A stretch of DNA of 64,000 nt from Muricea muricata (Eukaryota; Cnidaria; Anthozoa; Malacalcyonacea; Plexauridae): assembly GCA_963855995.1 (NCBI GenBank), contig OY979717.1, positions 10,660,001-10,724,000 of the forward strand. Direction: 5' to 3'. The translations under genes were made by a program, and so were the position numbers. Positions 16,375 to 64,000 of the stretch are shown here, piece by piece (the first letter of the stretch is position 1; every line of letters begins with the position of its first letter). The notes beneath the pieces were generated by a model. The model did no database searches and had not been told where the DNA came from. It saw only the letters and a list, made by a program, of their open reading frames with translations.

Positions 16375-16428
16375 TTTAATTCAACATATTCTTTTACAAA
16401 CGCACAAAACGTGCATATTCACGTTTGC

Positions 16429-20590: not shown

Positions 20591-22695
20591 ATATCACAAA
20601 TAACAAAAATGGGTAAGATCACAACTTGAGCATACAGTAGGTTTTTGGTGCTACGAATTTTAAAGTCCCATACTTTTGTAAGCAATACAACATTTGAAAA
20701 ATAAATGTGTGTTGAAATCAGCCTTCTCTTATACTCAGAGAAGACCTTGTAACTTCTGATCAAACATACATTTCCAAATTTAATGACCCAGCTTTAGGCG
20801 TTCAATATACATCATTGAACAAAACAGATCACTATTTAAATCTAATGTCGCTGAGGCACTACAGAAACGATAAGTATTAAATAAATGGAAATGTCGTTCA
20901 CTGATTGCACAAATGATCACGCAAATTATATTTTGATGTTTATGATAAAACTTATACAGCACGTTAATAACAGCAGCCTATACATGGATGCATGTGCGCA
21001 TGGCAATAGTGCCTACCCGGTCGTAATTCAACAACAATCACTGCAACAGCAGAGCATGAGGTATATATATACAAATCGGTGATACTATATCTTGATGGTC
21101 TGATTCGAAGATACAGGGTTTTAGCACTTACGGTCTGGGGGCCGCTTCTACCCTCCCCTATATTTCGAACCAGAGGTGGTGGAGTTATGATACAGACGGT
21201 TGAGGCAGTCAATTCGATGTCGTTGTCGAAAGGCAACCGCATTTGGTGAGCTGTCGAGGTCAATTGTGCGAAGCCACCCGTGCGCGCCATCCGTGTGCAA
21301 ACTTTTATTACAATACCCCGGTCCTTTTTACCATCGTTATACATTTCCAAGGCTAATCCTTCGAAGGTAGCAGAATTCCTGACACCTTTTGGAACCTTTT
21401 AGTTTAAATTGATTACGCTGGCGTACAATCTCTTATGACGCTTTTCAATAGCCCTAATGTAAGTGGTAGAGCGTAATTCTTTTCAATTATTTATTTGGGG
21501 TTTTTTCGCCAAAAAAAATGGCTCCCGCCTTTAAGAAAAACTAAAGCATTTTGAGCACGGTTTTCTGTTGAATTTTTTTCGATGGTTTTTTAGAACTTTT
21601 ATTTTCTCCATTTACCAAAAATTTTGCCAGTGCGGTTAACAAGGAAATAAAAATTTCTCTTTATCAGACTGTATGATAAAAAGAAGTAATTGTCAAATTG
21701 TGACGAATTTTTTTCTAAAAAAATTTGCAAAATAGACGAAAAGATACTTTGGAAAGGGTTATTAATCCTTACACAAGACGAAAACTATTTAATGCATGGC
21801 AAGGGCAGGAATTGATCCTACCCACTTTTGTAGGGTAATTTGTATTTGACCACTGCATTACGTTGGTTATGAGGCTTCGGCAAGTTGGTTTAAGTTGTCT
21901 ATACGTTCTTCTAGTCTATGCTTAATTCTTGAAACTGACGAAATCCAGAACGATTTTTATCAAAGGTAGGTATTGCTCCCGGACTCAGTAATTGATTCTG
22001 AAGGGATACACATTGTCTTTACCACTGGACTATGTTACTTACCACTTTCTATGTCAGTTACCACTTTGACTGGGTTAAGAATTATTATAGATATACACGC
22101 TAGATTAAATCAAAGTTATTCGAAGCCATTCGCGAGCTTTTGTTCGCATTTCATCGAATAATATTTAATCATACTCTGTCGAGGAAGACCTTGAAGTTGC
22201 TTTTGAGTGTAATTACATTTTTAAATTATGTACAAATTTATTTCTAAATAAATCCAATTGAGTCTTTTGCAATATCACAAATAACAAAAATGGGTAAGGT
22301 CAAAACTTGAGCATATAGTAGGTTTCTGGTGCTACGAATTTTAAAAGCCTATATTTTTGTGAGTAATAAAACATTTGAAAAATAAATGTGTGTTGAAATC
22401 AGCCTTCTCTTATACTCGGAGAAGACCTTGTAAATTCTGATCAAACATACTTTTCCAAATATAATGACCTAGCTATAGGCGTCCAATATATATATCATTG
22501 AACAAAGCAGAACACTATTTAAATCTAATTTCGAAGAACAACATTAATGCTGGAGCACTACAGAGACGATAAGTATTAAATAAATGGAAATGTGTTTCGC
22601 TGATTGCATAAATGACCACGCAAATTATATTTTGATGTTTATGATAAAACTTACACAGCACGTTAATAACAGCAGCCTATATATAGATGCATGTG

Positions 22696-22877
22696 CGCAT
22701 GGCAATAGTGCCTACCTGGTCGTAATTCAGCCACAATCAGTGCAACAGCAAAGCATGACGTATATAAATACATATCGGCGGTACTATAGTATCACCGATT
22801 TGTATTTATATACGTCATGCTTTGCTGTTGCACTAATTGTGGTTGAATTACGACCAGGTAGGCACTATTGCCATGCG
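22696..22877. repeat. Palindrome of B unit 1, 182 bp, no spacer
   Basis: Arms of 91 bp meet at TACTATAGTA (22782-22791). The left arm is the normal head sequence of the satellite unit; the right arm is its inverse. A few mismatches lie close to the centre. Confidence 0.9.
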
Positions 22878-22911
22878 TGATCATTTGCTTTTCTTCTTTT
22901 AAAATATCTGC

Positions 22912-23165
22912 CTGTACTTAGGGGAAACAGGCAGATCTCTGGAAACAAGAAAGGCTGAACACATCAGAAACGTTAAGGAACATGATAATGGTTCAAACAT
23001 CGAAAAACGTGCAACGCGAAAATCATTGATGACACAGGGAATTTCCGTAGTCGCCTAACACTAGAAAGTCTAGAATCATGGCATACAGCTGCCAAACACA
23101 GCAATGCTGATAACAACTCAAAACCGCTTCCTCGACAATGTACAATCTTAATAAAGAAAACATAG
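22912..23165 (+). pseudogene. GIY-YIG endonuclease remnant, Penelope-like element, B unit 1
   Basis: Reads LYLGETGRSLETRKAEHIRN then VKEHDNGSNIEKRA in one frame. After a frameshift it reads TLESLESWHTAAKHSNADNN then SKPLPRQCTILIKKT and a stop. YLGETGRSL...R..EH and the late LESWH.....N...PLP are the pattern of the GIY-YIG domain at the C-terminus of Penelope-like retroelements. The first Y of the GIY part and the RT domain are missing. The frameshift and stops rule out function. Confidence 0.7.
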
Positions 23166-23711
23166 TATCACCTTATCGTATTTCACAGTGCACATGTATA
23201 CACGTCATATCTAGCTTCATTTCACACTTTCACAGTTTACTGCAATCATTATAAATATACCCGTTGAAGGCTACAGACTGGTGGCCGAAAGCTCGTAAAC
23301 AAATAAATATATTTTAGTCAGAGAACGTCTCACCCTTTTCATTTATGTCTAATTGACACATCTACGATTTTTAGTGGTTTATATTGTTTAACCATTTCTT
23401 AAAGCTCATTCAGTTAAAAACGGGTAAAATAGGGCGAGTGTAATAGCCAACGCGGTCTGGTGGTAAGGCAAAGTGGCGGTAAATAAACAACGCAGCTGAA
23501 CGATAATTCCCTTGCTCTGAATTCTTTTCATGTTTTAGAATTAATTATAGGCTAGAGAAAAGCCCGCTTAAACAATTTAAGTGGCAAGCGCGTGATAGCA
23601 AACATATATAGTCTAGTGGCCAATGCAAAATGTCTCAAGTCAACGAGTTTTTGGTCAAACCTAATTGCCCTTGTCACAAACCCCATAGGTTTTTGTCTGG
23701 GCTAAGAATTA
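23166..23711. other. B-specific segment between GIY-YIG remnant and MITE
   Basis: Probably the 3' untranslated tail of the Penelope-like copy: it has GACTGGTGGCCGAAAGCTCG (23276-23295), then AAATAAATATATTTTAGTCA and CAGAGAACGTCT. No gene seen. Equivalent segments follow the remnants at 28786, 44585 and 62081. Confidence 0.5.
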
Positions 23712-24326
23712 CAGTTGAACCCCTATTAAACGGACACCATTGGGACCTCGCCAAGGTGTCCGCTTAAGAGGGGTGTCCGCCTAAAAGGGGTCTCGCAAAA
23801 TCACAACAGGGGGTAATTTTTCTTATGTTATTTATTTACCTATGTTAATAATATATAATAATTATATAAAAGTCTACGAAAATATCTACGTTCAGAAACT
23901 TTTGTAGTTAAAATCAGCGTTCAAAAAGCCTAGGAACGTTTGCGCTCGAGTCTTTCGCGAAAGCTCATAATACAAAATAAAACATAACAAAGCTAAGAAT
24001 AATCATTTATAAAGGCCACATTTCACTTCAATCGTGAACGGCGAAACGTAGCGTATTCGATATATGGAGTCCATATCATTAACTGCCCGAGTGTTCACGA
24101 AACAATGAAATACGCTACGTTTCGTTACGTTACTCTCCGCTTAAAAGGGGTTGATTTGTTCATTGGGACCTCCAGTGAGGTGTCCGCTTCCGCTAAATAG
24201 GGGTGTCCGCCAAATAAAGGTTTCCTTACTAGTATTTAATTAAAGAAACGTTTGGGACCTGAATTTAGTGTCCGCTTAAAAGGGGTGTCCGCTTAAAAGG
24301 GGTGTCCGCTATTAGGGGTTCAACTG
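23712..24326. mobile_element. 615-bp TA-flanked MITE in B unit 1
   Basis: TIRs start CAGTTGAACCCCTATTAA, with GCGGACAC-type subterminal repeats (TGTCCGCTTAAAAGGGG). TA flanks both ends (23710-23711, 24327-24328). A units carry the matching empty site GAATTATTAT. TA target and CAGTTGAACC-type ends fit the Tc1/mariner-pogo group. Internal inverse pair CGAAACGTAGCGTATT (about 24050 and 24107). No transposase. Confidence 0.85.
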
Positions 24327-25726
24327 TATTATCAATATACACGCTAGATTAAATCAAAGTTATTCGAAGCCATTCGCGAGCTTTTGTTCGCATTTCATCG
24401 AATAATATTTGCTCATACTCTGTCGAGGAAGATCTTGAAGTTGCTTTTGAGTGTAATTACATTTATATGCACAAATTTATTTCTAAATAAATCCAATTGA
24501 GTCTTTTGCAATATCACAATAACAAAAATGGGTAAGATCACAACTTGAGCATACAGTAGGTTTCTGGTGCTACGAATTTTAAAATCTCATATTTTTGTAA
24601 GTAGAACATTTGAAAGATAAATGTGTGTTGAAATCAGCCTTCTCTTATTCTCGGAGAAGACCATGTAAATTCTGATCAAACATACATTTCCAAATTTAAT
24701 GACCCAGCTATATGACGTTCAATATATATCATTGAACTAAACAGATCACTATTTAAATCTAATGTCGAAGAACAATTTTATTGCTGAGGCACTACAGACA
24801 CGATAAGTATTAAATAAATGGAAATGTTTTTCGCTGATTGCATAAATGACCACGCAAATTATATTTTGATATGATAAAACTTATACAGCACGTTAATAAC
24901 AGCAGCCTATATATAGATGCATGTGCGCATGGCAATAGTGTCTACCCGGTCGTAATTCAACCACAATCACTGCAACAGCAGAGCATGAGGTATATATATA
25001 CAAATCGGTGATACTATATCTTGGTGGTCTGGTTCGAAGATACAGGGTTTTAGCACTTACGGTCTGGGGGCCGCTTCTACCCTCCCCTATATTTCGAACC
25101 AGAGGTGGTGGAGTTGTGATACAGACGGTTGAGGCAGTCAATTCGATGTCGTTGTCGCAAGGCAACCGCATTTGGTGGGCTGTCGAGGCCAATTGTGCGA
25201 AGCCACCCGTGCGCGCCATCCGTGTGCAAACTTTTATTCCAATACCCCGGTCCTTTTTACCATCGTTATACATTTCCAAGGCTAATCCTTCGAAGGTAGC
25301 AGAATTCCTGACACCTTTTGGAACCTTTTAATTTAAATTGATTACGCTGGCGTACAATCTCTTATGACGCTTTTCAATAGCCCTAATGTAAGTGGTAGAG
25401 CGTAATTCTTTTCAATTATTTATTTGGGGTTTTTTCGCCAAAAAAGATGGCTCCCACCGTTAAGAAAAACTATAGCATTTTGAGCACGGTTTTCTGTTGA
25501 ATTTTTTTCGATGGTTTTTTAGAACTTTTATTTTCTCCATTTACCAAAAATTTTGCCAGTGCGGTTAACAAGGAAATAAAAATTTTTCTTTATCAGACTG
25601 TATGATAAAAAGAAGTAATTGTCAAATTGTGACGAATTTTTTTCTAAAAAAATTTGCAAAATAGACGAAAAGATACTTTGGAAAGGGTTATTAATTCTTA
25701 CACAAGACGAAAACTATTTAATGCAT

Positions 25727-25797
25727 GGCAAGGGCAGGAATTGATCCTACCCACTTTTGTAGGGTAATTTGTATTTGACCACTGCATTACGTTGGTT
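25727..25797 (-). ncRNA. Degenerate tRNA-like module 2 in an A unit (representative copy)
   Basis: Minus strand: A-box-like TAATGCAGTGG (25779-25789) and B-box-like GGATCAATTCC (25737-25747, 9 of 11 to the consensus). A T-arm GTAGG-ATCAATT-CCTGC has five pairs and a 7-base loop, and the D-arm can pair GTA with TAC. The anticodon stem pairs poorly, so it is not a working tRNA; it could be a tRNA-derived SINE piece with internal Pol III promoter elements. The same module recurs at the same offset in every A body and is absent from B units. Confidence 0.4.
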
Positions 25798-25891
25798 ATG
25801 AGGCTTCGGCAAGTTGGTTTAAGTTGTCTATACGTTCTTCTAGCCTATGCTTAATTCTTGAAACTGACGAAATCCAGAACGATTTTTATCA

Positions 25892-25972
25892 AAGGTAGGT
25901 ATTGCTCCCGGACTCAGTAATTGATTCTGAAGGGATACACATTGTCTTTACCACAGGACTATGTTAGTTACC
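25892..25972 (-). ncRNA. Degenerate tRNA-like module 1 in an A unit (representative copy)
   Basis: Minus strand, about 100 bp upstream of module 2 in the direction of transcription: A-box-like TAGTCCTGTGG (25950-25960) and a weaker B-box-like GGAGCAATACC (25898-25908, 7 of 11). Weaker than module 2; possibly a second tRNA-related head. It recurs in every A body. Confidence 0.3.
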
Positions 25973-26586
25973 ACTTTTTATGTCAGTTACCACTTTGACT
26001 GGGTTAAGAATTATTATAGATATACACGCTAGATTAAATCAAAGTTATTCGAAGCCATTCGCGAGCTTTTGTTCGCATTTCATCGAATAATATTTAATCA
26101 TACTCTGTCGAGGAAGACCTTGAAGTTGCTTTTGAGTGTAATTACATTTTTAAATTATGTACAAATTTATTTCTAAATAAATCCAATTGAGTCTTTTGCA
26201 ATATCACAAATAACAAAAATGGGTAAGGTCACAACTTGAGCATATAGTAGGTTTCTGGTGCTACGAATTTTAAAAGCCTATATTTTTGTGAGTAATAAAA
26301 CATTTGAAAAATAAATGTGTGTTGAAATCAGCCTTCTCTTATTCTCGGAGAAGACCATGTAAATTCTGATCAAACATACATTTCCAAATTTAATGACCCA
26401 GATATATGACGTTCAATATATATCATTGAACTGAACAGATCACTATTTAAATCTAATGTCGAAGAACAATTTTATTGCTGAGGCACTACAGACACGATAA
26501 GTATTAAATAAATGGAAATGTTTTTCGCTGATTGCATAAATGACCACGCAAATTATATTTTGATATGATAAAACTTATACAGCACG

Positions 26587-26973
26587 TTAATAACAGCAGC
26601 CTATATATAGATGCATGTGCGCATGGCAATAGTGTCTACCCGGTCGTAATTCAACCACAATCACTGCAACAGCAGAGCATGAGGTATATATATACAAATC
26701 GGTGATACTATATCTTGATGGTCTGGTTCGAAGACACAGGGTTTTAGCACTTACGGTCTGGGGGCCGCTTCTACCCTCCCCTATATTTCGAACCAGAGGT
26801 GGTGGAGTTGTGATACAGACGGTTGAGGCAGTCAATTCGATGTCGTTGTCGAAAGGCAACCGCATTTGGTGGGCTGTCGAGGCCAATTGTGCGAAGCCAC
26901 CCGTGCGCGCCATCCGTGTGCAAACTTTTATTACAATACCCCGGTCCTTTTTACCATCGTTATACATTTCCAA
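26587..26973 (-). other. Repeated 128-codon open frame of A units (representative copy), unrecognised
   Basis: Intact in 18 of the 20 complete A units. It is shortened by a C-tract expansion in two (42566-42772, 60062-60268) and cut by the window end in the last. The product starts MEMYNDGKKDRGIVIKVCTR and matches no family I know. A splice-donor-like ACC/GTAAGT lies inside. Differences between copies are largely amino-acid changing (GIVI/GIGI, ITP/IIP, TLY/TLC), which does not suggest selection. The opposite strand has an overlapping 107-codon frame. Most likely non-coding satellite sequence kept open by homogenisation. Confidence 0.3.
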
Positions 26974-28318
26974 GGCTAATCCTTCGAAGGTAGCAGAATT
27001 CCTGACACCTTTTGGAACCTTTTAATTTAAATTGATTACGCTGGCGTACAATCTCTTATGACGCTTTTCAATAGCCCTAATGTAAGTGGTAGAGCGTAAT
27101 TCTTTTCAATTATTTATTTGGGGTTTTTTCGCCAAAAAAGATGGCTCCCACCGTTAAGAAAAACTATAGCATTTTGAGCACGGTTTTCTGTTGAATTTTT
27201 TTCGATGGTTTTTTAGAACTTTTATTTTCTCCATTTACCAAAAATTTTGCCAGTGCGGTTAATAAGGAAATAAAAATTTTTCTTTATCAGACTGTATGAT
27301 AAAAAGAAGTAATTGTCAAATTGTGACGAATTTTTTTCTAAAAAAATTTGCAAAATAGACGAAAAGATACTTTGGAAAGGGTTATTAATTCTTACACAAG
27401 ACGAAAACTATTTAATGCATGGCAAGGGCAGGAATTGATCCTACCCACTTTTGTAGGGTAATTTGTACTTGACCACTGCATTACGTTGGTTATGAGGCTT
27501 CGGCAAGTTGGTTTAAGTTGTCTATACGTTCTTCTAGCCTATGCTTAATTCTTGAAACTGACGAAATCCAGAACGATTTTTATCAAAGGTAGGTATTGCT
27601 CCCGGACTCAGTGATTGATTCTGAAGGGATACACATTGTCTTTACCACAGGACTATGTTAGTTACCACTTTTTATGTCAGTTACCACTTTGACTGGGTTA
27701 AGAATTATTATAGATATACACGCTAGATTAAATCAAAGTTATTCGAAGCCATTCGCGAGCTTTTGTTCGCATTTCATCGAATAATATTTAATCATACTCT
27801 GTCGAGGAAGACCTTGAAGTTGCTTTTGAGTGTAATTACATTTTTAAATTATGTACAAATTTATTTCTAAATAAATCCAATTGAGTCTTTTGCAATATCA
27901 CAAATAACAAAAATGGGTAAGGTCAAAACTTGAGCACATAGTAGGTTTCTGGTGCTACGAATTTTAAAAGCCTATATTTTTGTGAGTAATAAAACATTTG
28001 AAAAATAAATGTGTGTTGAAATCAGCCTTCTCTTATACTCGGAGAAGACCTTGTAAATTCTGATCAAACATACTTTTCCAAATATAATGACCTAGCTATA
28101 GGCGTCCAATATATATATCATTGAACAAAGCAGATCACTATTTAAATCTAATTTCGAAGAACAACATTACTGCTGGAGCACTACAGAGACGATAAGTATT
28201 AAATAAATGGAAATGTGTTTCGCTGATTGCATAAATGACCACGCAAATTATATTTTGATGTTTATGATAAAACTTACACAGCACGTTAATAACAGCAGCC
28301 TATATATAGATGCATGTG

Positions 28319-28500
28319 CGCATGGCAATAGTGCCTACCTGGTCGTAATTCAACCACAATCAGTGCAACAGCAAAGCATGACGTATATAAATACAAATCG
28401 GTCGTACTATAGTATCACCGATTTGTATTTATATACGTCATGCTTTGCTGTTGCACTAATTGTGGTTGAATTACGACCAGGTAGGCACTATTGCCATGCG
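28319..28500. repeat. Palindrome of B unit 2, 182 bp
   Basis: Same structure, better matched than in unit 1 (ACAAATCGGT / ACCGATTTGT flank the centre). Confidence 0.9.
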
Positions 28501-28534
28501 TGATCATTTGCTTTTCTTCTTTTAAAATATCTGC

Positions 28535-28785
28535 CTGTACTTAGGGGAAACAGGCAGATCTCTGGAAACAAGAAAGGCTGAACACATCAGAAACGTTAAG
28601 GAACATGATAATGGTTCAAACATCGAAAAACGTGCAACGCGAAAATCATTGACACAGGGAATTTCCGTAGTCGCCTAACACTAGAAAGTCTAGAATCATG
28701 GCATACAGCTGCCAAACACAGCAATGCTGATAACAACTCAAAACCGCTTCCTCGACAATGTGCAATCTTAATAAAGAAAACATAG
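28535..28785 (+). pseudogene. GIY-YIG endonuclease remnant, B unit 2
   Basis: Same sequence with a 3-bp deletion after AAATCATTGA relative to B unit 1; same frameshift. Confidence 0.7.
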
Positions 28786-29331
28786 TATCACCTTATCGTA
28801 TTTCACAGTGCACATGTATACACGTCATATCTAGCTTCATTTCACACTTTCACAGTTTACTGCAATCATTATAAATATACCCGTTGAAGGCTACAGACTG
28901 GTGGCCGAAAGCTCGTAAACAAATAAATATATTTTAGTCAGAGAACGTCTCACCCTTTTCATTTATGTCTAATTGACACATCTACGATTTTTAGTGGTTT
29001 ATATTGTTTAACCATTTCTTAAAGCTCATTCAGTTAAAAACGGGTAAAATAGGGCGAGTGTAATAGCCAACGCGGTCTGGTGGTAAGGCAAAGTGGCGGT
29101 AAATAAACAACGCAGCTGAACGATAATTCCCTTGCTCTGAATTCTTTTCATGTTTTAGAATTAATTATAGGCTAGAGAAAAGCCCGCTTAAAAAATTTAA
29201 GTGGCAAGCGCGTGATAGCAAACATATATAGTCTAGTGGCCAATGCAAAATGTCTCAAGTCAACGAGTTTTTGGTCAAACCTAATTGCCCTTGTCACAAA
29301 CCCCATAGGTTTTTGTCTGGGCTAAGAATTA

Positions 29332-29946
29332 CAGTTGAACCCCTATTAAACGGACACCATTGGGACCTCGCAAAGGTGTCCGCTTAAGAGGGGTGTCCGC
29401 CTAAAAGGGGTCTCGCAAAATCACAACAGGGGGTAATTTTTCTTATGTTATTTATTTACCTATGTTAATAATATATAATAATTATATAAAAGTCTACGAA
29501 AATATCTACGTTCAGAAACTTTTGTAGTTAAAATCAGCGTTCAAAAAGCCTAGGAACGTTTGCGCTCGAGTCTTTCGCGAAAGCTCATAATACAAAATAA
29601 AACATAACAAAGCTAAGAATAATCATTTATAAAGGCCACATTTCACTTCAATCGTGAACGGCGAAACGTAGCGTATTCGATATATGGAGTCCATATCATT
29701 AACTGCCCGAGTGTTCACGAAACAATGAAATACGCTACGTTTCGTTACGTTACTCTCCGCTTAAAAGGGGTTGATTTGTTCATTGGGACCTCCAGTGAGG
29801 TGTCCGCTTCCGCTAAATAGGGGTGTCCGCCAAATAAAGGTTTCCTTACTAGTATTTAATTAAAGAAACGTTTGGGACCTGAATTTAGTGTCCGCTTAAA
29901 AGGGGTGTCCGCTTAAAAGGGGTGTCCGCTATTAGGGGTTCAACTG
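29332..29946. mobile_element. 615-bp TA-flanked MITE in B unit 2
   Basis: Same element, same position and length, TA on both sides. Confidence 0.85.
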
Positions 29947-32900
29947 TATTATCAATATACACGCTAGATTAAATCAAAGTTATTCGAAGCCATTCGCGAG
30001 CTTTTGTTCGCATTTCATCGAATAATATTTGCTCATACTCTGTCGAGGAAGATCTTGAAGTTGCTTTTGAGTGTAATTACATTTATATGCACAAATTTAT
30101 TTCTAAATAAATCCAATTGAGTCTTTTGCAATATCACAATAACAAAAATGGGTAAGATCACAACTTGAGCATACAGTAGGTTTCTGGTGCTACGAATTTT
30201 AAAATCTCATATTTTTGTAAGTAGAACATTTGAAAGATAAATGTGTGTTGAAATCAGCCTTCTCTTATTCTCGGAGAAGACCATGTAAATTCTGATCAAA
30301 CATACATTTCCAAATTTAATGACCCAGCTATATGACGTTCAATATATATCATTGAACTAAACAGATCACTATTTAAATCTAATGTCGAAGAACAATTTTA
30401 TTGCTGAGGCACTACAGACACGATAAGTATTAAATAAATGGAAATGTTTTTCGCTGATTGCATAAATGACCACGCAAATTATATTTTGATATGATAAAAC
30501 TTATACAGCACGTTAATAACAGCAGCCTATATATAGATGCATGTGCGCATGGCAATAGTGTCTACCCGGTCGTAATTCAACCACAATCACTGCAACAGCA
30601 GAGCATGAGGTATATATATACAAATCGGTGATACTATATCTTGGTGGTCTGGTTCGAAGATACAGGGTTTTAGCACTTACGGTCTGGGGGCCGCTTCTAC
30701 CCTCCCCTATATTTCGAACCAGAGGTGGTGGAGTTGTGATACAGACGGTTGAGGCAGTCAATTCGATGTCGTTGTCGCAAGGCAACCGCATTTGGTGGGC
30801 TGTCGAGGCCAATTGTGCGAAGCCACCCGTGCGCGCCATCCGTGTGCAAACTTTTATTCCAATACCCCGGTCCTTTTTACCATCGTTATACATTTCCAAG
30901 GCTAATCCTTCGAAGGTAGCAGAATTCCTGACACCTTTTGGAACCTTTTAATTTAAATTGATTACGCTGGCGTACAATCTCTTATGACGCTTTTCAATAG
31001 CCCTAATGTAAGTGGTAGAGCGTAATTCTTTTCAATTATTTATTTGGGGTTTTTTCGCCAAAAAAGATGGCTCCCACCGTTAAGAAAAACTATAGCATTT
31101 TGAGCACGGTTTTCTGTTGAATTTTTTTCGATGGTTTTTTAGAACTTTTATTTTCTCCATTTACCAAAAATTTTGCCAGTGCGGTTAACAAGGAAATAAA
31201 AATTTTTCTTTATCAGACTGTATGATAAAAAGAAGTAATTGTCAAATTGTGACGAATTTTTTTCTAAAAAAATTTGCAAAATAGACGAAAAGATACTTTG
31301 GAAAGGGTTATTAATTCTTACACAAGACGAAAACTATTTAATGCATGGCAAGGGCAGGAATTGATCCTACCCACTTTTGTAGGGTAATTTGTATTTGACC
31401 ACTGCATTACGTTGGTTATGAGGCTTCGGCAAGTTGGTTTAAGTTGTCTATACGTTCTTCTAGCCTATGCTTAATTCTTGAAACTGACGAAATCCAGAAC
31501 GATTTTTATCAAAGGTAGGTATTGCTCCCGGACTCAGTAATTGATTCTGAAGGGATACACATTGTCTTTACCACAGGACTATGTTAGTTACCACTTTTTA
31601 TGTCAGTTACCACTTTGACTGGGTTAAGAATTATTATAGATATACACGCTAGATTAAATCAAAGTTATTCGAAGCCATTCGCGAGCTTTTGTTCGCATTT
31701 CATCGAATAATATTTAATCATACTCTGTCGAGGAAGACCTTGAAGTTGCTTTTGAGTGTAATTACATTTTTAAATTATGTACAAATTTATTTCTAAATAA
31801 ATCCAATTGAGTCTTTTGCAATATCACAAATAACAAAAATGGGTAAGGTCACAACTTGAGCATATAGTAGGTTTCTGGTGCTACGAATTTTAAAAGCCTA
31901 TATTTTTGTGAGTAATAAAACATTTGAAAAATAAATGTGTGTTGAAATCAGCCTTCTCTTATTCTCGGAGAAGACCATGTAAATTCTGATCAAACATACA
32001 TTTCCAAATTTAATGACCCAGATATATGACGTTCAATATATATCATTGAACTGAACAGATCACTATTTAAATCTAATGTCGAAGAACAATTTTATTGCTG
32101 AGGCACTACAGACACGATAAGTATTAAATAAATGGAAATGTTTTTCGCTGATTGCATAAATGACCACGCAAATTATATTTTGATATGATAAAACTTATAC
32201 AGCACGTTAATAACAGCAGCCTATATATAGATGCATGTGCGCATGGCAATAGTGTCTACCCGGTCGTAATTCAACCACAATCACTGCAACAGCAGAGCAT
32301 GAGGTATATATATACAAATCGGTGATACTATATCTTGATGGTCTGGTTCGAAGACACAGGGTTTTAGCACTTACGGTCTGGGGGCCGCTTCTACCCTCCC
32401 CTATATTTCGAACCAGAGGTGGTGGAGTTGTGATACAGACGGTTGAGGCAGTCAATTCGATGTCGTTGTCGAAAGGCAACCGCATTTGGTGGGCTGTCGA
32501 GGCCAATTGTGCGAAGCCACCCGTGCGCGCCATCCGTGTGCAAACTTTTATTACAATACCCCGGTCCTTTTTACCATCGTTATACATTTCCAAGGCTAAT
32601 CCTTCGAAGGTAGCAGAATTCCTGACACCTTTTGGAACCTTTTAATTTAAATTGATTACGCTGGCGTACAATCTCTTATGACGCTTTTCAATAGCCCTAA
32701 TGTAAGTGGTAGAGCGTAATTCTTTTCAATTATTTATTTGGGGTTTTTTCGCCAAAAAAGATGGCTCCCACCGTTAAGAAAAACTATAGCATTTTGAGCA
32801 CGGTTTTCTGTTGAATTTTTTTCGATGGTTTTTTAGAACTTTTATTTTCTCCATTTACCAAAAATTTTGCCAGTGCGGTTAATAAGGAAATAAAAATTTT

Positions 32901-35900: not shown

Positions 35901-38900
35901 TTGTGCGAAGCCACCCGTGCGCGCCATCCGTGTGCAAACTTTTATTACAATACCCCGGTCCTTTTTACCATCGTTATACATTTCCAAGGCTAATCCTTCG
36001 AAGGTAGCAGAATTCCTGACACCTTTTGGAACCTTTTAATTTAAATTGATTACGCTGGCGTACAATCTCTTATGACGCTTTTCAATAGCCCTAATGTAAG
36101 TGGTAGAGCGTAATTCTTTTCAATTATTTATTTGGGGTTTTTTCGCCAAAAAAGATGGCTCCCACCGTTAAGAAAAACTATAGCATTTTGAGCACGGTTT
36201 TCTGTTGAATTTTTTTCGATGGTTTTTTAGAACTTTTATTTTCTCCATTTACCAAAAATTTTGCCAGTGCGGTTAACAAGGAAATAAAAATTTTTCTTTA
36301 TCAGACTGTATGATAAAAAGAAGTAATTGTCAAATTGAGACGAATTTTTTTCTAAAAAAATTTGCAAAATAGACGAAAAGATACTTTGGAAAGGGTTATT
36401 AATTCTTACACAAGACGAAAACTATTTAATGCATGGCAAGGGCAGGAATTGATCCTACCCACTTTTGTAGGGTAATTTGTATTTGACCACTGCATTACGT
36501 TGGTTATGAGGCTTCGGCAAGTTGGTTTAAGTTGTCTATACGTTCTTCTAGCCTATGCTTAATTCTTGAAACTGACGAAATCCAGAACGATTTTTATCAA
36601 AGGTAGGTATTGCTCCCGGACTCAGTGATTGATTCTGAAGGGATACACATTGTCTTTACCACTGGACTATGTTAGTTACCACTTTCTATGTTAGTTACCA
36701 CTTTGACTGGGTTAAGAATTATTATAGATATACACGCTAGATTAAATCAAAGTTATTCGAAGCCATTCGCGAGCTTTTGTTCGCATTTCATCGAATAATA
36801 TTTAATCATACTCTGTCGAGGAAGACCTTGAAGTTGCTTTTGAGAGTAATTACATTTTTAAATTATGTACAAATTTATTTCTAAATAAATCCAATTGAGT
36901 CTTTTGCAATATCACAAATAACAAAAATGGGTAAGGTCACAACTTGAGCATATAGTAGGTTTCTGGTGCTACGAATTTTAAAAGCCTATATTTTTGTGAG
37001 TAATAAAACATTTGAAAAATAAATGTGTGTTGAAATCAGCCTTCTCTTATTCTCGGAGAAGACCATGTAAATTCTGATCAAACATACATTTCCAAATTTA
37101 ATGACCCAGCTATATGACGTTCAATATATATCATTGAACTAAACAGATCACTATTTAAATCTAATGTCGAAGAACAATTTTATTGCTGAGGCACTACAGA
37201 CACGATAAGTATTAAATAAATGGAAATGTTTTTCGCTGATTGCATAAATGACCACGCAAATTATATTTTGATATGATAAAACTTATACAGCACGTTAATA
37301 ACAGCAGCCTATATATAGATGCATGTGCGCATGGCAATAGTGTCTACCCGGTCGTAATTCAACCACAATCACTGCAACAGCAGAGCATGAGGTATATATA
37401 TACAAATCGGTGATACTATATCTTGATGGTCTGGTTCGAAGATACAGGGTTTTAGCACTTACGGTCTGGGGGCCGCTTCTACCCTCCCCTATATTTCGAA
37501 CCAGAGGTGGTGGAGTTGTGATACAGACGGTTGAGGCAGTCAATTCGATGTCGTTGTCGAAAGGCAACCGCATTTGGTGGGCTGTCGAGGCCAATTGTGC
37601 GAAGCCACCCGTGCGCGCCATCCGTGTGCAAACTTTTATTACAATACCCCGGTCCTTTTTACCATCGTTATACATTTCCAAGGCTAATCCTTCGAAGGTA
37701 GCAGAATTCCTGACACCTTTTGGAACCTTTTAATTTAAATTGATTACGCTGGCGTACAATCTCTTATGACGCTTTTCAATAGCCCTAATGTAAGTGGTAG
37801 AGCGTAATTCTTTTCAATTATTTATTTGGGGTTTTTTCGCCAAAAAAGATGGCTCCCACCGTTAAGAAAAACTATAGCATTTTGAGCACGGTTTTCTGTT
37901 GAATTTTTTTCGATGGTTTTTTAGAACTTTTATTTTCTCCATTTACCAAAAATTTTGCCAGTGCGGTTAACAAGGAAATAAAAATTTTTCTTTATCAGAC
38001 TGTATGATAAAAAGAAGTAATTGTCAAATTGAGACGAATTTTTTTCTAAAAAAATTTGCAAAATAGACGAAAAGATACTTTGGAAAGGGTTATTAATTCT
38101 TACACAAGACGAAAACTATTTAATGCATGGCAAGGGCAGGAATTGATCCTACCCACTTTTGTAGGGTAATTTGTATTTGACCACTGCATTACGTTGGTTA
38201 TGAGGCTTCGGCAAGTTGGTTTAAGTTGTCTATACGTTCTTCTAGCCTATGCTTAATTCTTGAAACTGACGAAATCCAGAACGATTTTTATCAAAGGTAG
38301 GTATTGCTCCCGGACTCAGTGATTGATTCTGAAGGGATACACATTGTCTTTACCACTGGACTATGTTAGTTACCACTTTCTATGTTAGTTACCACTTTGA
38401 CTGGGTTAAGAATTATTATAGATATACACGCTAGATTAAATCAAAGTTATTCGAAGCCATTCGCGAGCTTTTGTTCGCATTTCATCGAATAATATTTAAT
38501 CATACTCTGTCGAGGAAGACCTTGAAGTTGCTTTTGAGTGTAATTACATTTTTAAATTATGTACAAATTTATTTCTAAATAAATCCAATTGAGTCTTTTG
38601 CAATATCACAAATAACAAAAATGGGTAAGGTCACAACTTGAGCATATAGTAGGTTTCTGGTGCTACGAATTTTAAAAGCCTATATTTTTGTGAGTAATAA
38701 AACATTTGAAAAATAAATGTGTGTTGAAATCAGCCTTCTCTTATTCTCGGAGAAGACCATGTAAATTCTGATCAAACATACATTTCCAAATTTAATGACC
38801 CAGATATATGACGTTCAATATATATCATTGAACTAAACAGATCACTATTTAAATCTAATGTCGAAGAACAATTTTATTGCTGAGGCACTACAGAGACGAT

Positions 38901-44117: not shown

Positions 44118-44299
44118 CGCATGGCAATAGTGCCTACCTGGTCGTAATTCAACCACAATCAGTGCAACAGCAAAGCATGACGTATATAAATACAAATCGG
44201 TCGTACTATAGTATCACCGATTTGTATTTATATACGTCATGCTTTGCTGTTGCACTAATTGTGGTTGAATTACGACCAGGTAGGCACTATTGCCATGCG
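44118..44299. repeat. Palindrome of B unit 3, 182 bp
   Basis: Same structure and centre as unit 2. Confidence 0.9.
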
Positions 44300-44333
44300 T
44301 GATCATTTGCTTTTCTTCTTTTAAAATATCTGC

Positions 44334-44584
44334 CTGTACTTAGGGGAAACAGGCAGATCTCTGGAAACAAGAAAGGCTGAACACATCAGAAACGTTAAGG
44401 AACATGATAATGGTTCAAACATCGAAAAACGTGCAACGCGAAAATCATTGACACAGGGAATTTCCGTAGTCGCCTAACACTAGAAAGTCTAGAATCATGG
44501 CATACAGCTGCCAAACACAGCAATGCTGATAACAACTCAAAACCGCTTCCTCGACAATGTGCAATCTTAATAAAGAAAACATAG
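44334..44584 (+). pseudogene. GIY-YIG endonuclease remnant, B unit 3
   Basis: Same as in B unit 2, including the 3-bp deletion. Confidence 0.7.
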
Positions 44585-45130
44585 TATCACCTTATCGTAT
44601 TTCACAGTGCACATGTATACACGTCATATCTAGCTTCATTTCACACTTTCACAGTTTACTGCAATCATTATAAATATACCCGTTGAAGGCTACAGACTGG
44701 TGGCCGAAAGCTCGTAAACAAATAAATATATTTTAGTCAGAGAACGTCTCACCCTTTTCATTTATGTCTAATTGACACATCTACGATTTTTAGTGGTTTA
44801 TATTGTTTAACCATTTCTTAAAGCTCATTCAGTTAAAAACGGGTAAAATAGGGCGAGTGTAATAGCCAACGCGGTCTGGTGGTAAGGCAAAGTGGCGGTA
44901 AATAAACAACGCAGCTGAACGATAATTCCCTTGCTCTGAATTCTTTTCATGTTTTAGAATTAATTATAGGCTAGAGAAAAGCCCGCTTAAAAAATTTAAG
45001 TGGCAAGCGCGTGATAGCAAACATATATAGTCTAGTGGCCAATGCAAAATGTCTCAAGTCAACGAGTTTTTGGTCAAACCTAATTGCCCTTGTCACAAAC
45101 CCCATAGGTTTTTGTCTGGGCTAAGAATTA

Positions 45131-45745
45131 CAGTTGAACCCCTATTAAACGGACACCATTGGGACCTCGCCAAGGTGTCCGCTTAAGAGGGGTGTCCGCC
45201 TAAAAGGGGTCTCGCAAAATCACAACAGGGGGTAATTTTTCTTATGTTATTTATTTACCTATGTTAATAATATATAATAATTATATAAAAGTCTACGAAA
45301 ATATCTACGTTCAGAAACTTTTGTAGTTAAAATCAGCGTTCAAAAAGCCTAGGAACGTTTGCGCTCGAGTCTTTCGCGAAAGCTCATAATACAAAATAAA
45401 ACATAACAAAGCTAAGAATAATCATTTATAAAGGCCACATTTCACTTCAATCGTGAACGGCGAAACGTAGCGTATTCGATATATGGAGTCCATATCATTA
45501 ACTGCCCGAGTGTTCACGAAACAATGAAATACGCTACGTTTCGTTACGTTACTCTCCGCTTAAAAGGGGTTGATTTGTTCATTGGGACCTCCAGTGAGGT
45601 GTCCGCTTCCGCTAAATAGGGGTGTCCGCCAAATAAAGGTTTCCTTACTAGTATTTAATTAAAGAAACGTTTGGGACCTGAATTTAGTGTCCGCTTAAAA
45701 GGGGTGTCCGCTTAAAAGGGGTGTCCGCTATTAGGGGTTCAACTG
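45131..45745. mobile_element. 615-bp TA-flanked MITE in B unit 3
   Basis: Same element, same position and length, TA on both sides. Confidence 0.85.
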
Positions 45746-48700
45746 TATTATCAATATACACGCTAGATTAAATCAAAGTTATTCGAAGCCATTCGCGAGC
45801 TTTTGTTCGCATTTCATCGAATAATATTTGCTCATACTCTGTCGAGGAAGATCTTGAAGTTGCTTTTGAGTGTAATTACATTTATATGCACAAATTTATT
45901 TCTAAATAAATCCAATTGAGTCTTTTGCAATATCACAATAACAAAAATGGGTAAGATCACAACTTGAGCATACAGTAGGTTTCTGGTGCTACGAATTTTA
46001 AAATCTCATATTTTTGTAAGTAGAACATTTGAAAGATAAATGTGTGTTGAAATCAGCCTTCTCTTATTCTCGGAGAAGACCATGTAAATTCTGATCAAAC
46101 ATACATTTCCAAATTTAATGACCCAGCTATATGACGTTCAATATATATCATTGAACTAAACAGATCACTATTTAAATCTAATGTCGAAGAACAATTTTAT
46201 TGCTGAGGCACTACAGACACGATAAGTATTAAATAAATGGAAATGTTTTTCGCTGATTGCATAAATGACCACGCAAATTATATTTTGATATGATAAAACT
46301 TATACAGCACGTTAATAACAGCAGCCTATATATAGATGCATGTGCGCATGGCAATAGTGTCTACCCGGTCGTAATTCAACCACAATCACTGCAACAGCAG
46401 AGCATGAGGTATATATATACAAATCGGTGATACTATATCTTGATGGTCTGGTTCGAAGATACAGGGTTTTAGCACTTACGGTCTGGGGGCCGCTTCTACC
46501 CTCCCCTATATTTCGAACCAGAGGTGGTGGAGTTGTGATACAGAGGGTTGAGGCAGTCAATTCGATGTCGTTGTCGAAAGGCAACCGCATTTGGTGGGCT
46601 GTCGAGGCCAATTGTGCGAAGCCACCCGTGCGCGCCATCCGTGTGCAAACTTTTATTACAATACCCCGGTCCTTTTTACCATCGTTATACATTTCCAAGG
46701 CTAATCCTTCGAAGGTAGCAGAATTCCTGACACCTTTTGGAACCTTTTAATTTAAATTGATTACGCTGGCGTACAATCTCTTATGACGCTTTTCAATAGC
46801 CCTAATGTAAGTGGTAGAGCGTAATTCTTTTCAATTATTTATTTGGGGTTTTTTCGCCAAAAAAGATGGCTCCCACCGTTAAGAAAAACTATAGCATTTT
46901 GAGCACGGTTTTCTGTTGAATTTTTTTTCGATGGTTTTTTAGAACTTTTATTTTCTCCATTTACCAAAAATTTTGCCACTGCGGTTAACAAGGAAATAAA
47001 AATTTTTCTTTATCAGACTGTATGATAAAAAGAAGTAATTGTCAAATTGAGACGAATTTTTTTCTAAAAAAATTTGCAAAATAGACGAAAAGATACTTTG
47101 GAAAGGGTTATTAATTCTTACACAAGACGAAAACTATTTAATGCATGGCAAGGGCAGGAATTGATCCTACCCACTTTTGTAGGGTAATTTGTATTTGACC
47201 ACTGCATTACGTTGGTTATGAGGCTTCGGCAAGTTGGTTTAAGTTGTCTATACGTTCTTCTAGCCTATGCTTAATTCTTGAAACTGACGAAATCCAGAAC
47301 GATTTTTATCAAAGGTAGGTATTGCTCCCGGACTCAGTAATTGATTCTGAAGGGATACACATTGTCTTTACCACAGGACTTTGTTAGTTACCACTTTTTA
47401 TGTCAGTTACCACTTTGACTGGGTTAAGAATTATTATAGATATACACGCTAGATTAAATCAAAGTTATTCGAAGCCATTCGCGAGCTTTTGTTCGCATTT
47501 CATCGAATAATATTTAATCATACTCTGTCGAGGAAGACCTTGAAGTTGCTTTTGAGTGTAATTACATTTTTAAATTATGTACAAATTTATTTCTAAATAA
47601 ATCCAATTGAGTCTTTTGCAATATCACAAATAACAAAAATGGGTAAGGTAAACTTGAGCACATAGTAGGTTTCTGGTGCTACGAATTTTAAAAGCCTATA
47701 TTTTTGTGAGTAATAAAACATTTGAAAAATAAATGTGTGTTGAAATCAGCCTTCTCTTATACTCGGAGAAGACCTTGTAAATTCTGATCAAACATACTTT
47801 TCCAAATATAATGACCTAGCTATAGGCGTCCAATATATATATCATTGAACAAAGCAGATCACTATTTAAATCTAATTTCGAAGAACAACATTACTGCTGG
47901 AGCACTACAGAGACGATAAGTATTAAATAAATGGAAATGTGTTTCGCTGATTGCATAAATGACCACGCAAATTATATTTTGATGTTTATGATAAAACTTA
48001 CACAGCACGTTAATAACAGCAGCCTATATATAGATGCATGTGCGCATGGCAATAGTGTCTACCCGGTCGTAATTCAACCACAATCACTGCAACAGCAGAG
48101 CATGAGGTATATATATACAAATCGGTGATACTATATCTTGATGGTCTGGTTCGAAGATACAGGGTTTTAGCACTTACGGTCTGGGGGCCGCTTCTACCCT
48201 CTTCTATATTTCGAACCAGAGGTGGTGGAGTTGTGATAAAGACGGTTGAGGCAGTCAATTCGATTTCGTTGTCGAAAGGCAACCGCATTTGGTGGGCTGT
48301 CGAGGCCAATTGTGCGAAGCCACCCGTGCGCGCCATCCGTGTGCAAACTTTTATTACAATACCCCGGTCCTTTTTACCATCGTTATACATTTCCAAGGCT
48401 AATCCTTCGAAGGTAGCAGAATTCCTGACACTTTTTGGAACCTTTTAATTTAAATTGATTACGCTGGCGTACAATCTCTTATGACGCTTTTCAATAGCCC
48501 TAATGTAAGTGGTAGAGCGTAATTCTTTTCAATTATTTATTTGGGGTTTTTTCGCCAAAAAAGATGGCTCCCACCGTTAAGAAAAACTATAGCATTTTGA
48601 GCACGGTTTTCTGTTGAATTTTTTTCGATGGTTTTTTAGAACTTTTATTTTCTCCATTTACCAAAAATTTTGCCAGTGCGGTTAACAAGGAAATAAAAAT

Positions 48701-60700: not shown

Positions 60701-61613
60701 AACTATTTAATGCATGGCAAGGGCAGGAATTGATCCTACCCACTTTTGTAGGGTAATTTGTATTTGACCACTGCATTACGTTGGTTATGAGGCTTCGGCA
60801 AGTTGGTTTAAGTTGTCTATACGTTCTTCTAGCCTATGCTTAATTCTTGAAACTGACGAAATCCAGAACGATTTTTATCAAAGGTAGGTATTGCTCCCGG
60901 ACTCAGTGATTGATTCTGAAGGGATACACATTGTCTTTACCACAGGACTATGTTAGTTACCACTTTTTATGTCAGTTACCACTTTGACTGGGTTAAGAAT
61001 TATTATAGATATACACGCTAGATTAAATCAAAGTTATTCGAAGCCATTCGCGAGCTTTTGTTCGCATTTCATCGAATAATATTTAATCATACTCTGTCGA
61101 GGAAGACCTTGAAGTTGCTTTTGAGTGTAATTACATTTTTAAATTATGTACAAATTTATTTCTAAATAAATCCAATTGAGTCTTTTGCAATATCACAAAT
61201 AACAAAAATGGGTAAGGTCAAAACTTGAGCACATAGTAGGTTTCTGGTGCTACGAATTTTAAAAGCCTATATTTTTGTGAGTAATAAAACATTTGAAAAA
61301 TAAATGTGTGTTGAAATCAGCCTTCTCTTATACTCGGAGAAGACCTTGTAAATTCTGATCAAACATACTTTTCCAAATATAATGACCTAGCTATAGGCGT
61401 CCAATATATATATCATTGAACAAAGCAGATCACTATTTAAATCTAATTTCGAAGAACAACATTACTGCTGGAGCACTACAGAGACGATAAGTATTAAATA
61501 AATGGAAATGTGTTTCGCTGATTGCATAAATGACCACGCAAATTATATTTTGATGTTTATGATAAAACTTACACAGCACGTTAATAACAGCAGCCTATAT
61601 ATAGATGCATGTG

Positions 61614-61795
61614 CGCATGGCAATAGTGCCTACCTGGTCGTAATTCAACCACAATCAGTGCAACAGCAAAGCATGACGTATATAAATACAAATCGGTCGT
61701 ACTATAGTATCACCGATTTGTATTTATATACGTCATGCTTTGCTGTTGCACTAATTGTGGTTGAATTACGACCAGGTAGGCACTATTGCCATGCG
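61614..61795. repeat. Palindrome of B unit 4, 182 bp
   Basis: Same structure and centre as unit 2. Confidence 0.9.
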
Positions 61796-61829
61796 TGATC
61801 ATTTGCTTTTCTTCTTTTAAAATATCTGC

Positions 61830-62080
61830 CTGTACTTAGGGGAAACAGGCAGATCTCTGGAAACAAGAAAGGCTGAACACATCAGAAACGTTAAGGAACA
61901 TGATAATGGTTCAAACATCGAAAAACGTGCAACGCGAAAATCATTGACACAGGGAATTTCCGTAGTCGCCTAACACTAGAAAGTCTAGAATCATGGCATA
62001 CAGCTGCCAAACACAGCAATGCTGATAACAACTCAAAACCGCTTCCTCGACAATGTGCAATCTTAATAAAGAAAACATAG
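61830..62080 (+). pseudogene. GIY-YIG endonuclease remnant, B unit 4
   Basis: Same as in B unit 2, including the 3-bp deletion. Confidence 0.7.
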
Positions 62081-62626
62081 TATCACCTTATCGTATTTCA
62101 CAGTGCACATGTATACACGTCATATCTAGCTTCATTTCACACTTTCACAGTTTACTGCAATCATTATAAATATACCCGTTGAAGGCTACAGACTGGTGGC
62201 CGAAAGCTCGTAAACAAATAAATATATTTTAGTCAGAGAACGTCTCACCCTTTTCATTTATGTCTAATTGACACATCTACGATTTTTAGTGGTTTATATT
62301 GTTTAACCATTTCTTAAAGCTCATTCAGTTAAAAACGGGTAAAATAGGGCGAGTGTAATAGCCAACGCGGTCTGGTGGTAAGGCAAAGTGGCGGTAAATA
62401 AACAACGCAGCTGAACGATAATTCCCTTGCTCTGAATTCTTTTCATGTTTTAGAATTAATTATAGGCTAGAGAAAAGCCCGCTTAAAAAATTTAAGTGGC
62501 AAGCGCGTGATAGCAAACATATATAGTCTAGTGGCCAATGCAAAATGTCTCAAGTCAACGAGTTTTTGGTCAAACCTAATTGCCCTTGTCACAAACCCCA
62601 TAGGTTTTTGTCTGGGCTAAGAATTA

Positions 62627-63241
62627 CAGTTGAACCCCTATTAAACGGACACCATTGGGACCTCGCCAAGGTGTCCGCTTAAGAGGGGTGTCCGCCTAAA
62701 AGGGGTCTCGCAAAATCACAACAGGGGGTAATTTTTCTTATGTTATTTATTTACCTATGTTAATAATATATAATAATTATATAAAAGTCTACGAAAATAT
62801 CTACGTTCAGAAACTTTTGTAGTTAAAATCAGCGTTCAAAAAGCCTAGGAACGTTTGCGCTCGAGTCTTTCGCGAAAGCTCATAATACAAAATAAAACAT
62901 AACAAAGCTAAGAATAATCATTTATAAAGGCCACATTTCACTTCAATCGTGAACGGCGAAACGTAGCGTATTCGATATATGGAGTCCATATCATTAACTG
63001 CCCGAGTGTTCACGAAACAATGAAATACGCTACGTTTCGTTACGTTACTCTCCGCTTAAAAGGGGTTGATTTGTTCATTGGGACCTCCAGTGAGGTGTCC
63101 GCTTCCGCTAAATAGGGGTGTCCGCCAAATAAAGGTTTCCTTACTAGTATTTAATTAAAGAAACGTTTGGGACCTGAATTTAGTGTCCGCTTAAAAGGGG
63201 TGTCCGCTTAAAAGGGGTGTCCGCTATTAGGGGTTCAACTG
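62627..63241. mobile_element. 615-bp TA-flanked MITE in B unit 4
   Basis: Same element, same position and length, TA on both sides. Confidence 0.85.
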
Positions 63242-64000
63242 TATTATCAATATACACGCTAGATTAAATCAAAGTTATTCGAAGCCATTCGCGAGCTTTT
63301 GTTCGCATTTCATCGAATAATATTTGCTCATACTCTGTCGAGGAAGATCTTGAAGTTGCTTTTGAGTGTAATTACATTTATATGCACAAATTTATTTCTA
63401 AATAAATCCAATTGAGTCTTTTGCAATATCACAATAACAAAAATGGGTAAGATCACAACTTGAGCATACAGTAGGTTTCTGGTGCTACGAATTTTAAAAT
63501 CTCATATTTTTGTAAGTAGAACATTTGAAAGATAAATGTGTGTTGAAATCAGCCTTCTCTTATTCTCGGAGAAGACCATGTAAATTCTGATCAAACATAC
63601 ATTTCCAAATTTAATGACCCAGCTATATGACGTTCAATATATATCATTGAACTAAACAGATCACTATTTAAATCTAATGTCGAAGAACAATTTTATTGCT
63701 GAGGCACTACAGACACGATAAGTATTAAATAAATGGAAATGTTTTTCGCTGATTGCATAAATGACCACGCAAATTATATTTTGATATGATAAAACTTATA
63801 CAGCACGTTAATAACAGCAGCCTATATATAGATGCATGTGCGCATGGCAATAGTGTCTACCCGGTCGTAATTCAACCACAATCACTGCAACAGCAGAGCA
63901 TGAGGTATATATATACAAATCGGTGATACTATATCTTGATGGTCTGGTTCGAAGATACAGGGTTTTAGCACTTACGGTCTGGGGGCCGCTTCTACCCTCC

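Follow-up and report, generated by a model that had tools for sequence, protein, structure and literature searches.

The window analysed here is a 64,000-bp stretch of the Muricea muricata genome (C2:10,660,001-10,724,000; C1, C2 and so on are contig labels in the 453-Mb, 74-contig assembly). From position 20591 to its end it is filled by a tandem array of two related kilobase-sized units, A and B, that lies inside a transposon bounded by terminal inverted repeats (TIRs). A BLAST comparison of the first unit with the window recovered 20 complete A units of 1681-1699 bp and 4 B units of 2236-2239 bp, all head to tail, with the last A unit cut by the window end at 64000. These are the counts that an initial annotation, made from the sequence alone, had reported. 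Its extent of at least 43 kb likewise holds within the window, but the window end is no limit: in C2 sequence fetched to 10,904,000 the array runs on to C2:10,841,061, a length of 160.5 kb, and comprises 90 complete units (76 A and 14 B) and one partial unit. To the left of 20591 the first unit has no BLAST match in the window, and a more sensitive search of the left flank with unit A03 and the B middle returned no match above 54 bp; the left boundary that matters is at 17743, where the transposon starts, and not at 20591.

Taken by itself, the array has the properties of a satellite with higher-order repeats, being long, homogenised, head to tail and built in part from multi-unit repeats. One block of 10,098 bp recurs with zero mismatches at an offset of 17,496 bp, and another of 4,173 bp recurs identically at an offset of 5,620 bp (Table 1). 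This repeated identity of array blocks far exceeds chance. Identical blocks of such length could in principle also stem from assembly.

The transposon enclosing the array, which the initial annotation had not recognised, is delimited by TIRs and a target-site duplication and measures 164,046 bp. Reading from the left, the 8-bp duplication AGAGAAAG is followed by an inverted end beginning GGTTATATCG, a minisatellite, a copia-like gag fragment and the A/B array; on the right side the array is followed by the inverted minisatellite, the second inverted end and again AGAGAAAG. We take the gag fragment to be copia-like from a CCHC-type knuckle and a DTGATSH motif recognised by eye; Pfam zinc-knuckle scores fall below cut-off. 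The piece at 20440-20613 gave nothing in Pfam and only short low-complexity matches in the PDB. The start of a 308-bp insert in this fragment is present as an exact string in three of four copies of the element (C2, C12 and C16, not C3).

Comparison of unit B02 with A01 and A03 shows that the two unit types are common at their ends, over the first ~508 bp at ~88-91% identity and over the last ~190 bp at ~94%, and differ in their middles. The B middle contains 91 bp of A-type sequence in inverted orientation as well as ~815 bp of other sequence and a 615-bp miniature inverted-repeat transposable element (MITE) with a TA duplication. The description of B as an A unit whose middle was swapped for mobile-element sequence is thus right in outline, with shared ends and a MITE as the mobile-element sequence, and incomplete in that the middle also holds an inverted A-type piece. 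Among the window's complete A units, five of 20 (A09, A12, A16, A18 and A22) are B-type over their first ~410 alignment columns and A-type over the rest, A16 with a 2-bp gap in its B-type stretch, so A and B exchange sequence. Mosaic units and multi-unit identical duplications therefore fit unequal exchange in register, and both back the mode of spread that the annotation had proposed.

Two overlapping, out-of-step coding frames in B may be the GIY-YIG end of a Penelope-like element, a tentative assignment from their residues; two short pieces had no Pfam match, and viral contigs gave no confirmed match. Matches to microRNA-precursor-like Rfam families, all below gathering score, fall in the 182-bp inverted repeat of B02. 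We considered and set aside a functional RNA in the unit, since the window contains no Rfam match at gathering score and no tRNA, and a hammerhead ribozyme, whose core pattern was absent from one A and one B unit. A protein-coding role for the A unit was also rejected: its 144-aa minus-strand frame has no Pfam or PDB match, carries 18 nonsynonymous and 6 synonymous changes among the A units of the window, and is missing from the open reading frame (ORF) list for A13 and A23. The pieces searched against viral contigs, prokaryote contigs, phages and plasmids had no confirmed relatives there.

Table 1 Features of the array and of its enclosing element, in window positions
Feature	Position	Strand	Basis or remark
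Target-site duplication AGAGAAAG, 8 bp, left copy	17735..17742		right copy C2:10,841,789-10,841,796
Left TIR, starts GGTTATATCGTTATGTTACGCGCAC	17743..17840	+	inverted partner ends C2:10,841,788
Minisatellite of GTGTTATAGGCGTTATTG-type units, periods 18/26/44 bp	17841..19379	+	inverted copy at right end of element
Copia-like gag fragment (putative) captured in element	19380..20587	+	ORF frames
308-bp insert in copia-like fragment	20150..20457		absent from array-free relatives L078, L079
Copia/array junction, GATGTAATTA/ATATCAC	20588..20591	+	27-nt string
A/B tandem array, window part	20591..64000	+	20 full A, 4 B, 1 cut A; on to C2:10,841,061
First (edge) A unit	20591..22271	+	unit comparison
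B unit 1 (B02)	22272..24510	+	BLAST
Inverted repeat in B02, 182 bp, two 91-bp arms, 5 differences	22696..22877		sequence
Two overlapping out-of-step coding frames in B	22903..23165	+	ORF frames
615-bp MITE in B02, CAGTTGAACCCC termini, TA duplication	23712..24326	+	also 29332-29946, 45131-45745, 62627-63241
3-unit (B A A, 5,620-bp) duplication, part	23753..27925	+	identical to 29373-33545
B unit 2 (B05)	27895..30130	+	BLAST
10-unit (17,496-bp) higher-order repeat, part of first copy	36407..46504	+	identical to 53903-64000
B unit 3 (B14)	43694..45929	+	BLAST
B unit 4 (B24)	61190..63425	+	zero differences vs B14

The enclosing element belongs to a family dispersed through the genome. When the C2 element was aligned with a 169,192-bp element on C3 (duplication AACGAGAG on both sides), homology began and stopped exactly at the TIR end, the flanks were unrelated, and the first 25 nt were free of mismatches at all four ends. 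Two shorter copies, of 12,482 bp on C12 (duplication TAAAATTT, 5 A/B units) and 19,711 bp on C16 (duplication GGAATTCT, 10 A/B units), are ordered as TIR, minisatellite, copia-like fragment, A/B units, remainder of the copia-like fragment, inverted minisatellite and TIR, and in both the array starts and ends at whole-unit borders. A 22-nt TIR pattern allowing up to 2 mismatches occurs at 110 genome sites (53 forward, 57 reverse; control 0). Of these 110, 100 were listed; joining each listed plus site to a neighbouring minus site that follows it within 250 kb gave 23 pairs spanning 5.8-214.8 kb and 10 spanning 101-121 bp, and left 34 sites unpaired. Exact 8-bp duplications flank 21 of the 23 pairs of at least 5 kb (C2, C3, C12, C16 and 17 of 19 further pairs tested); of the remaining two, one has a duplication (GAAACGGA) shifted by 2 bp and one has none. 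The 101-121-bp pairs look like MITEs, and in the two that were read the duplication is exact in one and matches at 7 of 8 positions in the other. Across 22 pairs and one MITE, 23 distinct target duplications were found. The element thus has the marks of a Class II TIR DNA transposon: TIRs, a duplication of constant length, and unrelated insertion sites between which homology ends at the TIR.

The point at which the array enters the copia-like fragment is shared across this family. A search for the junction string that tolerated up to 3 mismatches returned 26 genome sites, of which 23 match exactly and 3 have one mismatch (control 0). Every one of them is located inside a listed TIR site on the same strand, at a distance of 1.4-17.7 kb that stays within 7 kb in 25 cases; paired elements (7.7-214.8 kb, 1.09 Mb summed) hold 20 of the sites, and 6 stand beside a single listed TIR. 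Nineteen of the 20 junction-bearing pairs have an exact 8-bp duplication and the other has one shifted by 2 bp. The copia-like fragment itself, in a genome search that scored 40 of 60 candidates, is present in 21 of the 23 pairs of at least 5 kb, and its ~730-bp frame is 97-100% identical in most copies. Two array-free copia relatives (L078 and L079, ~91% identity) read through the array position unbroken; because two diverged copies run through its position, the array is an insertion into copia. B sequence was also located by position in the copies at C2:6.07 and C3:24.84 Mb.

Three of the 23 pairs (C3:57.06, C5:14.20 and C16:10.91 Mb) lack the junction. The C3 pair, 5.8 kb long, has an exact duplication, a copia-like fragment at 92% identity and no junction match, as expected of a frame without the seed; 2 kb read from it contained minisatellite and a reverse transcriptase (Pfam RVT_1). 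The other two, C5:14,203,435-14,227,045 (23.6 kb, exact target duplication) and C16:10,910,221-10,971,792 (61.6 kb), have no copia match and no junction, and have in common a left TIR variant, GGTTGTATCG; they are probably another subfamily. A left-type TIR with copia-like fragment and junction at C3:49,239,374 has no listed partner, and an A/B array (L031, C3:49,900,500-49,909,500) lies 0.66 Mb further on. By eye, a ~1.26-kb element with inverted ends CCACCCTTTTCGAGG... could be made out at ~1333-2590 of locus L029, between the array of the C3 copy and the copia remainder.

The 26 junction copies are scattered over 12 contigs, one to five on each and none on C1, the largest contig seen, which disfavours the centromeric or subtelomeric satellite that the initial annotation had offered as one option. 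Its alternative of an amplified transposon holds in the sense that the array is transposon cargo. As a separate observation, C1 makes up 124 of 453 Mb, and a lack of junction copies there has a chance of ~2.4e-4 under even placement; TIR MITEs do occur on C1, and a contig-ordered list of matches to a 26-mer from B starts with C2 and not C1.

The MITE allows growth of the C2 array to be followed. It is present in all 14 B units of the C2 copy, and the MITE/B junction has 13 genome matches (up to 1 mismatch), all inside the C2 element; B units of the C3, C12 and C16 copies lack the MITE (B0) and carry the empty site. Because every B unit in C2 contains the MITE and its junction was found nowhere else, the C2 array appears to have grown mostly in place. 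B0 adjoins A in all three other copies, which means that the A/B pair predates the C2 array and that only the MITE arose and spread there; the earlier proposal that B arose once from A within this array is not supported by this result. Growth in place is argued here for C2, and would extend to the other long copies by analogy.

Unit divergence points the same way. A units differ on average by 1.28% within C2 (2,850 pairs) and by 2.03%, 2.16% and 2.55% between C2 and C16, C12 and C3, respectively. The first unit of C2 is 1.78% from the first unit of C16 and 1.86% from that of C3, with the best other C2 unit at 2.39%, and the first unit of C3 is nearest to the first units of C16 (1.38%) and C2 (1.86%). 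The comparison leaves out C3_03 (1,489 bp, incomplete), C12_02 (a B unit with a ~1-kb insertion), the partial last C2 unit and the units of L029, L031 and L032, and covers the left 15 kb of the C3 copy. Copia frames differ by 0.59-2.01% among C2, C3, C12 and C16. The order of seed, dispersal and growth rests on the shared junction, the kinship of first units, the within- and between-copy means of A units and the private MITE junction.

We consider it highly probable that the array forms the variable central part of a TIR DNA transposon that is non-autonomous and was seeded once and dispersed, its arrays then growing in place. A seed of A/B units would have entered the copia-like fragment of one element a single time, and a transposase acting in trans, possibly Merlin-like, would have carried that seeded element to 26 places or more. 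At their new sites the arrays would have grown or shrunk by unequal exchange between misaligned units, to 5 units in C12, 10 in C16 and ~90 in C2. In the C2 copy a MITE would have entered one B unit after this copy had parted from the relatives read here, and growth of the array would then have spread it to all 14 B units. We also think it likely, though with less assurance, that the element acts as a satellite-seeding transposon of the cut-and-paste type, in which a short satellite of kilobase units was captured once and planted at no fewer than 26 sites, with some copies inflated in place by recombination to 160-215 kb.

Several observations weigh against this account. In C2 the array meets the right minisatellite directly, without a right copia piece, and the TIR pair at C16:10.91 Mb is the one without a target duplication. 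The first unit of C12 has the third unit of the same copy as its nearest relative (0.48%), and for the first unit of C16 a unit of the same array (1.49%) is hardly more distant than the first unit of C3 (1.38%). The sole C3-C3 unit pair shows a difference of 2.65%, and the smallest differences between copies (0.89%) overlap the largest within C2 (3.57%). Whole sequences were read for 3 of the 20 paired junction copies (C2, C12 and C16) and partial ones for 2 (C3:52.95 and C8:13.65 Mb), and for the other 15 the reading covered the ends. Among closed frames of at least 110 aa, the 12.5-kb C12 copy shows no transposase. Matches to PF12762 (DDE_Tnp_IS1595; 58 in the genome with 69 of 69 candidates scored, four of them in stop-free frames of 359-360 aa) never lie within a TIR pair, and their closest approach to the 100 listed TIR sites is 200 kb; open Merlin frames are found, for example, near C1:32,044,171, C2:1,775,525 and C1:15,404,672. 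Matches to the MULE domain PF10551 (103 among 150 of 269 candidates scored) likewise never lie within a TIR pair, with a closest approach of 69.6 kb.

A further point on this side is that A/B arrays also occur far from TIRs, for example at C2:24.16-24.28, C3:34.71-34.74 and C3:40.49-40.63 Mb, 2-12 Mb from the nearest listed site, so the transposon is not the sole route by which the units spread. The B 26-mer has 564 exact places in the genome, and among 100 listed, 16 are in paired elements and 84 outside. Distances of 0.9-13.7 Mb separate the main outside clusters from the nearest listed TIR site, and within most of these clusters the B 26-mers are spaced at ~3.3 kb (12.2 kb at C2:65.57). Further clusters among the places listed are at C2:29.44, C2:65.57-65.59 and C3:37.62 Mb. 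One such outside array may have been the source of the captured seed.

These outside places also lend weight to a different origin of the array, in which the A/B unit is itself mobile or rolling-circle and was inserted as a ready-made tandem array, the TIR element being one target among others. A and B0 have common ends and different middles, the arrays of C12 and C16 have whole-unit borders, and copia is unbroken at the empty site, all of which fits such a unit. Against it, neither terminal motifs nor a clear target duplication nor any coding capacity could be shown for the unit, and its mobility accounts for the seed but not for 26 shared junctions. We regard a mobile unit as a tentative possibility, and one that is compatible with the transposon explanation. 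An integrated circular amplicon may have supplied the first seed, but is not needed to explain it.

Dispersal of a seeded, short element followed by growth can also be set against a bolder form of the same idea, in which pieces of more than 150 kb transposed as such: the 164-215 kb elements would have moved at full size, the array having been near its present size before transposition. The C2 and C3 elements and a third pair of 214,830 bp all have exact 8-bp duplications, which favours this reading. Yet 13 of the 20 paired junction copies measure 7.7-35 kb, and the MITE junction is private to C2 with the MITE in every C2 B unit. Composition differs too, C2 being A-rich with MITE-bearing B units whereas 5.1 kb read inside the C3 array consists of B0/A dimers of 3,313 bp. 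We therefore judge a move at full size improbable.

Poorer still are the prospects of an ordinary megasatellite with higher-order repeats that lies beside transposon debris by chance. The array alone does show all the features of a satellite, and similar arrays exist far from listed TIRs, but coincidence would have to place one and the same junction a short way inside a TIR 26 times and to put exact 8-bp duplications around 19 of the 20 paired copies. Least credible of all is spread by segmental duplication or ectopic recombination. The near-identity of the copia frames in most copies might suggest it, but wherever the duplications of a copy have been read it is already contradicted, by C2/C3 homology that ends exactly at the TIR between unrelated flanks and by duplications that all differ among 22 TIR pairs.

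Within Class II, the element is foldback-like in that a minisatellite lies directly inside both TIRs, inverted, in the C2, C3, C12 and C16 copies. The six closed frames of at least 110 aa in the C12 copy are three of minisatellite, the copia gag, the A-unit frame and one of 116 aa, and the last three have no Pfam match above cut-off; because no transposase of its own was seen in this copy, the element is filed as non-autonomous. An autonomous partner was looked for among the mid-size TIR pairs, and the 2 kb read of the 5.8-kb pair on C3 held no transposase. The TIR starts with GG and the target duplication is 8 bp, and the Merlin superfamily is described as having TIRs beginning with GG and target duplications of 8 or 9 bp (PMC8101967). 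These Merlin-like features are only suggestive, and differ from that superfamily as described there in that no Merlin transposase is linked to the TIRs here. The target duplications lean towards a palindromic A-rich/T-rich target. In our judgement the TIRs and 8-bp duplications speak against a Helitron.

The closest known system is Tetris, a Drosophila virilis foldback transposon whose TIRs contain tandem repeats. It has no apparent coding capacity, its target duplications measure 8-10 bp and an autonomous partner was not found; satellite arrays expand inside it to as many as 66 copies of a ~220-bp repeat (PMC4079207). Repeats at the TIRs, duplications in the 8-bp range and internal satellite growth are common to both. 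The Tetris satellite derives from the TIR repeats, whereas here the array is a separate central A/B sequence with units of ~1.6-2.2 kb; unlike Tetris, the present elements share one founding junction and reach 215 kb. For the history of the array itself, the nearest parallel is a human megasatellite derived from a long terminal repeat (LTR), with kilobase units of mobile-element sequence, higher-order repeats, unequal crossing over and a unit type marked by an insertion, an LTR6A copy in one monomer of each higher-order repeat (PMC2588610). As far as the accessible part of that report goes, it mentions no TIR element with duplications around the array, and it ascribes interchromosomal spread to segmental duplication.

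In the Pacific oyster, Cg_HINE elements carry satellite-like repeats on Helentrons (PMC7492417). They are similar in that non-autonomous elements disperse tandem repeats genome-wide, and different in belonging to the Helentron superfamily and holding short arrays, where the present element has TIRs, 8-bp duplications and a 160-kb array. In size the element can be compared with Teratorn. The latter reportedly has a viral, gene-rich part. It is described as a DNA-transposon-based element of ~180 kb, a composite of a piggyBac-like transposon (PMC10175614); unlike in Teratorn, no long coding sequence was seen here. Transposon-borne satellites (PMC12628747) and giant transposons (PMC6431247) are both known and reviewed, and coral MITEs forming tandem arrays have been reported (PMC2872659). 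A search of the open-access literature returned, among the matches listed, no non-coding TIR element of such size with a satellite of kilobase units. Transposon-borne satellites are thus already known; the unit size, the element size and the single-capture history are unusual. To our knowledge, the 160-215 kb copies would be among the largest TIR-bounded insertions, and no gene has been seen in them so far.

How satellites reach many separate places near genes and lengthen there is a long-standing question. This one genome holds an apparent ordered series, from a founding junction through one frame at 26 sites with target duplications and arrays of 5, 10 and ~90 units in the copies read whole to a private MITE that marks later growth, and it allows the idea of seeding by transposition and growth by unequal exchange to be tested directly on each copy. 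It also shows that large coding cargo is not a requirement for TIR-bounded elements of very large size.

The C2 element starts ~1.4 kb upstream of the first exon of the gene for the RNA polymerase I large subunit; the first-exon region of this largest subunit lies at window 16006-16380 on the minus strand (Pfam PF04997; best PDB match 7ob9_A) and marks the window as eukaryotic DNA. Elsewhere in the window, a 19-bp minisatellite (CTGAAATGGGGATAAAACG) occurs twice, at 8247-8541 and 9381-9548, in inverted orientation and ~0.8 kb apart, and the pair looks like another small element with minisatellite-bearing inverted ends. A 415-codon open frame at 599-1846 on the minus strand contains a Schlafen AlbA_2 domain (Pfam PF04326, E 1.6e-12).

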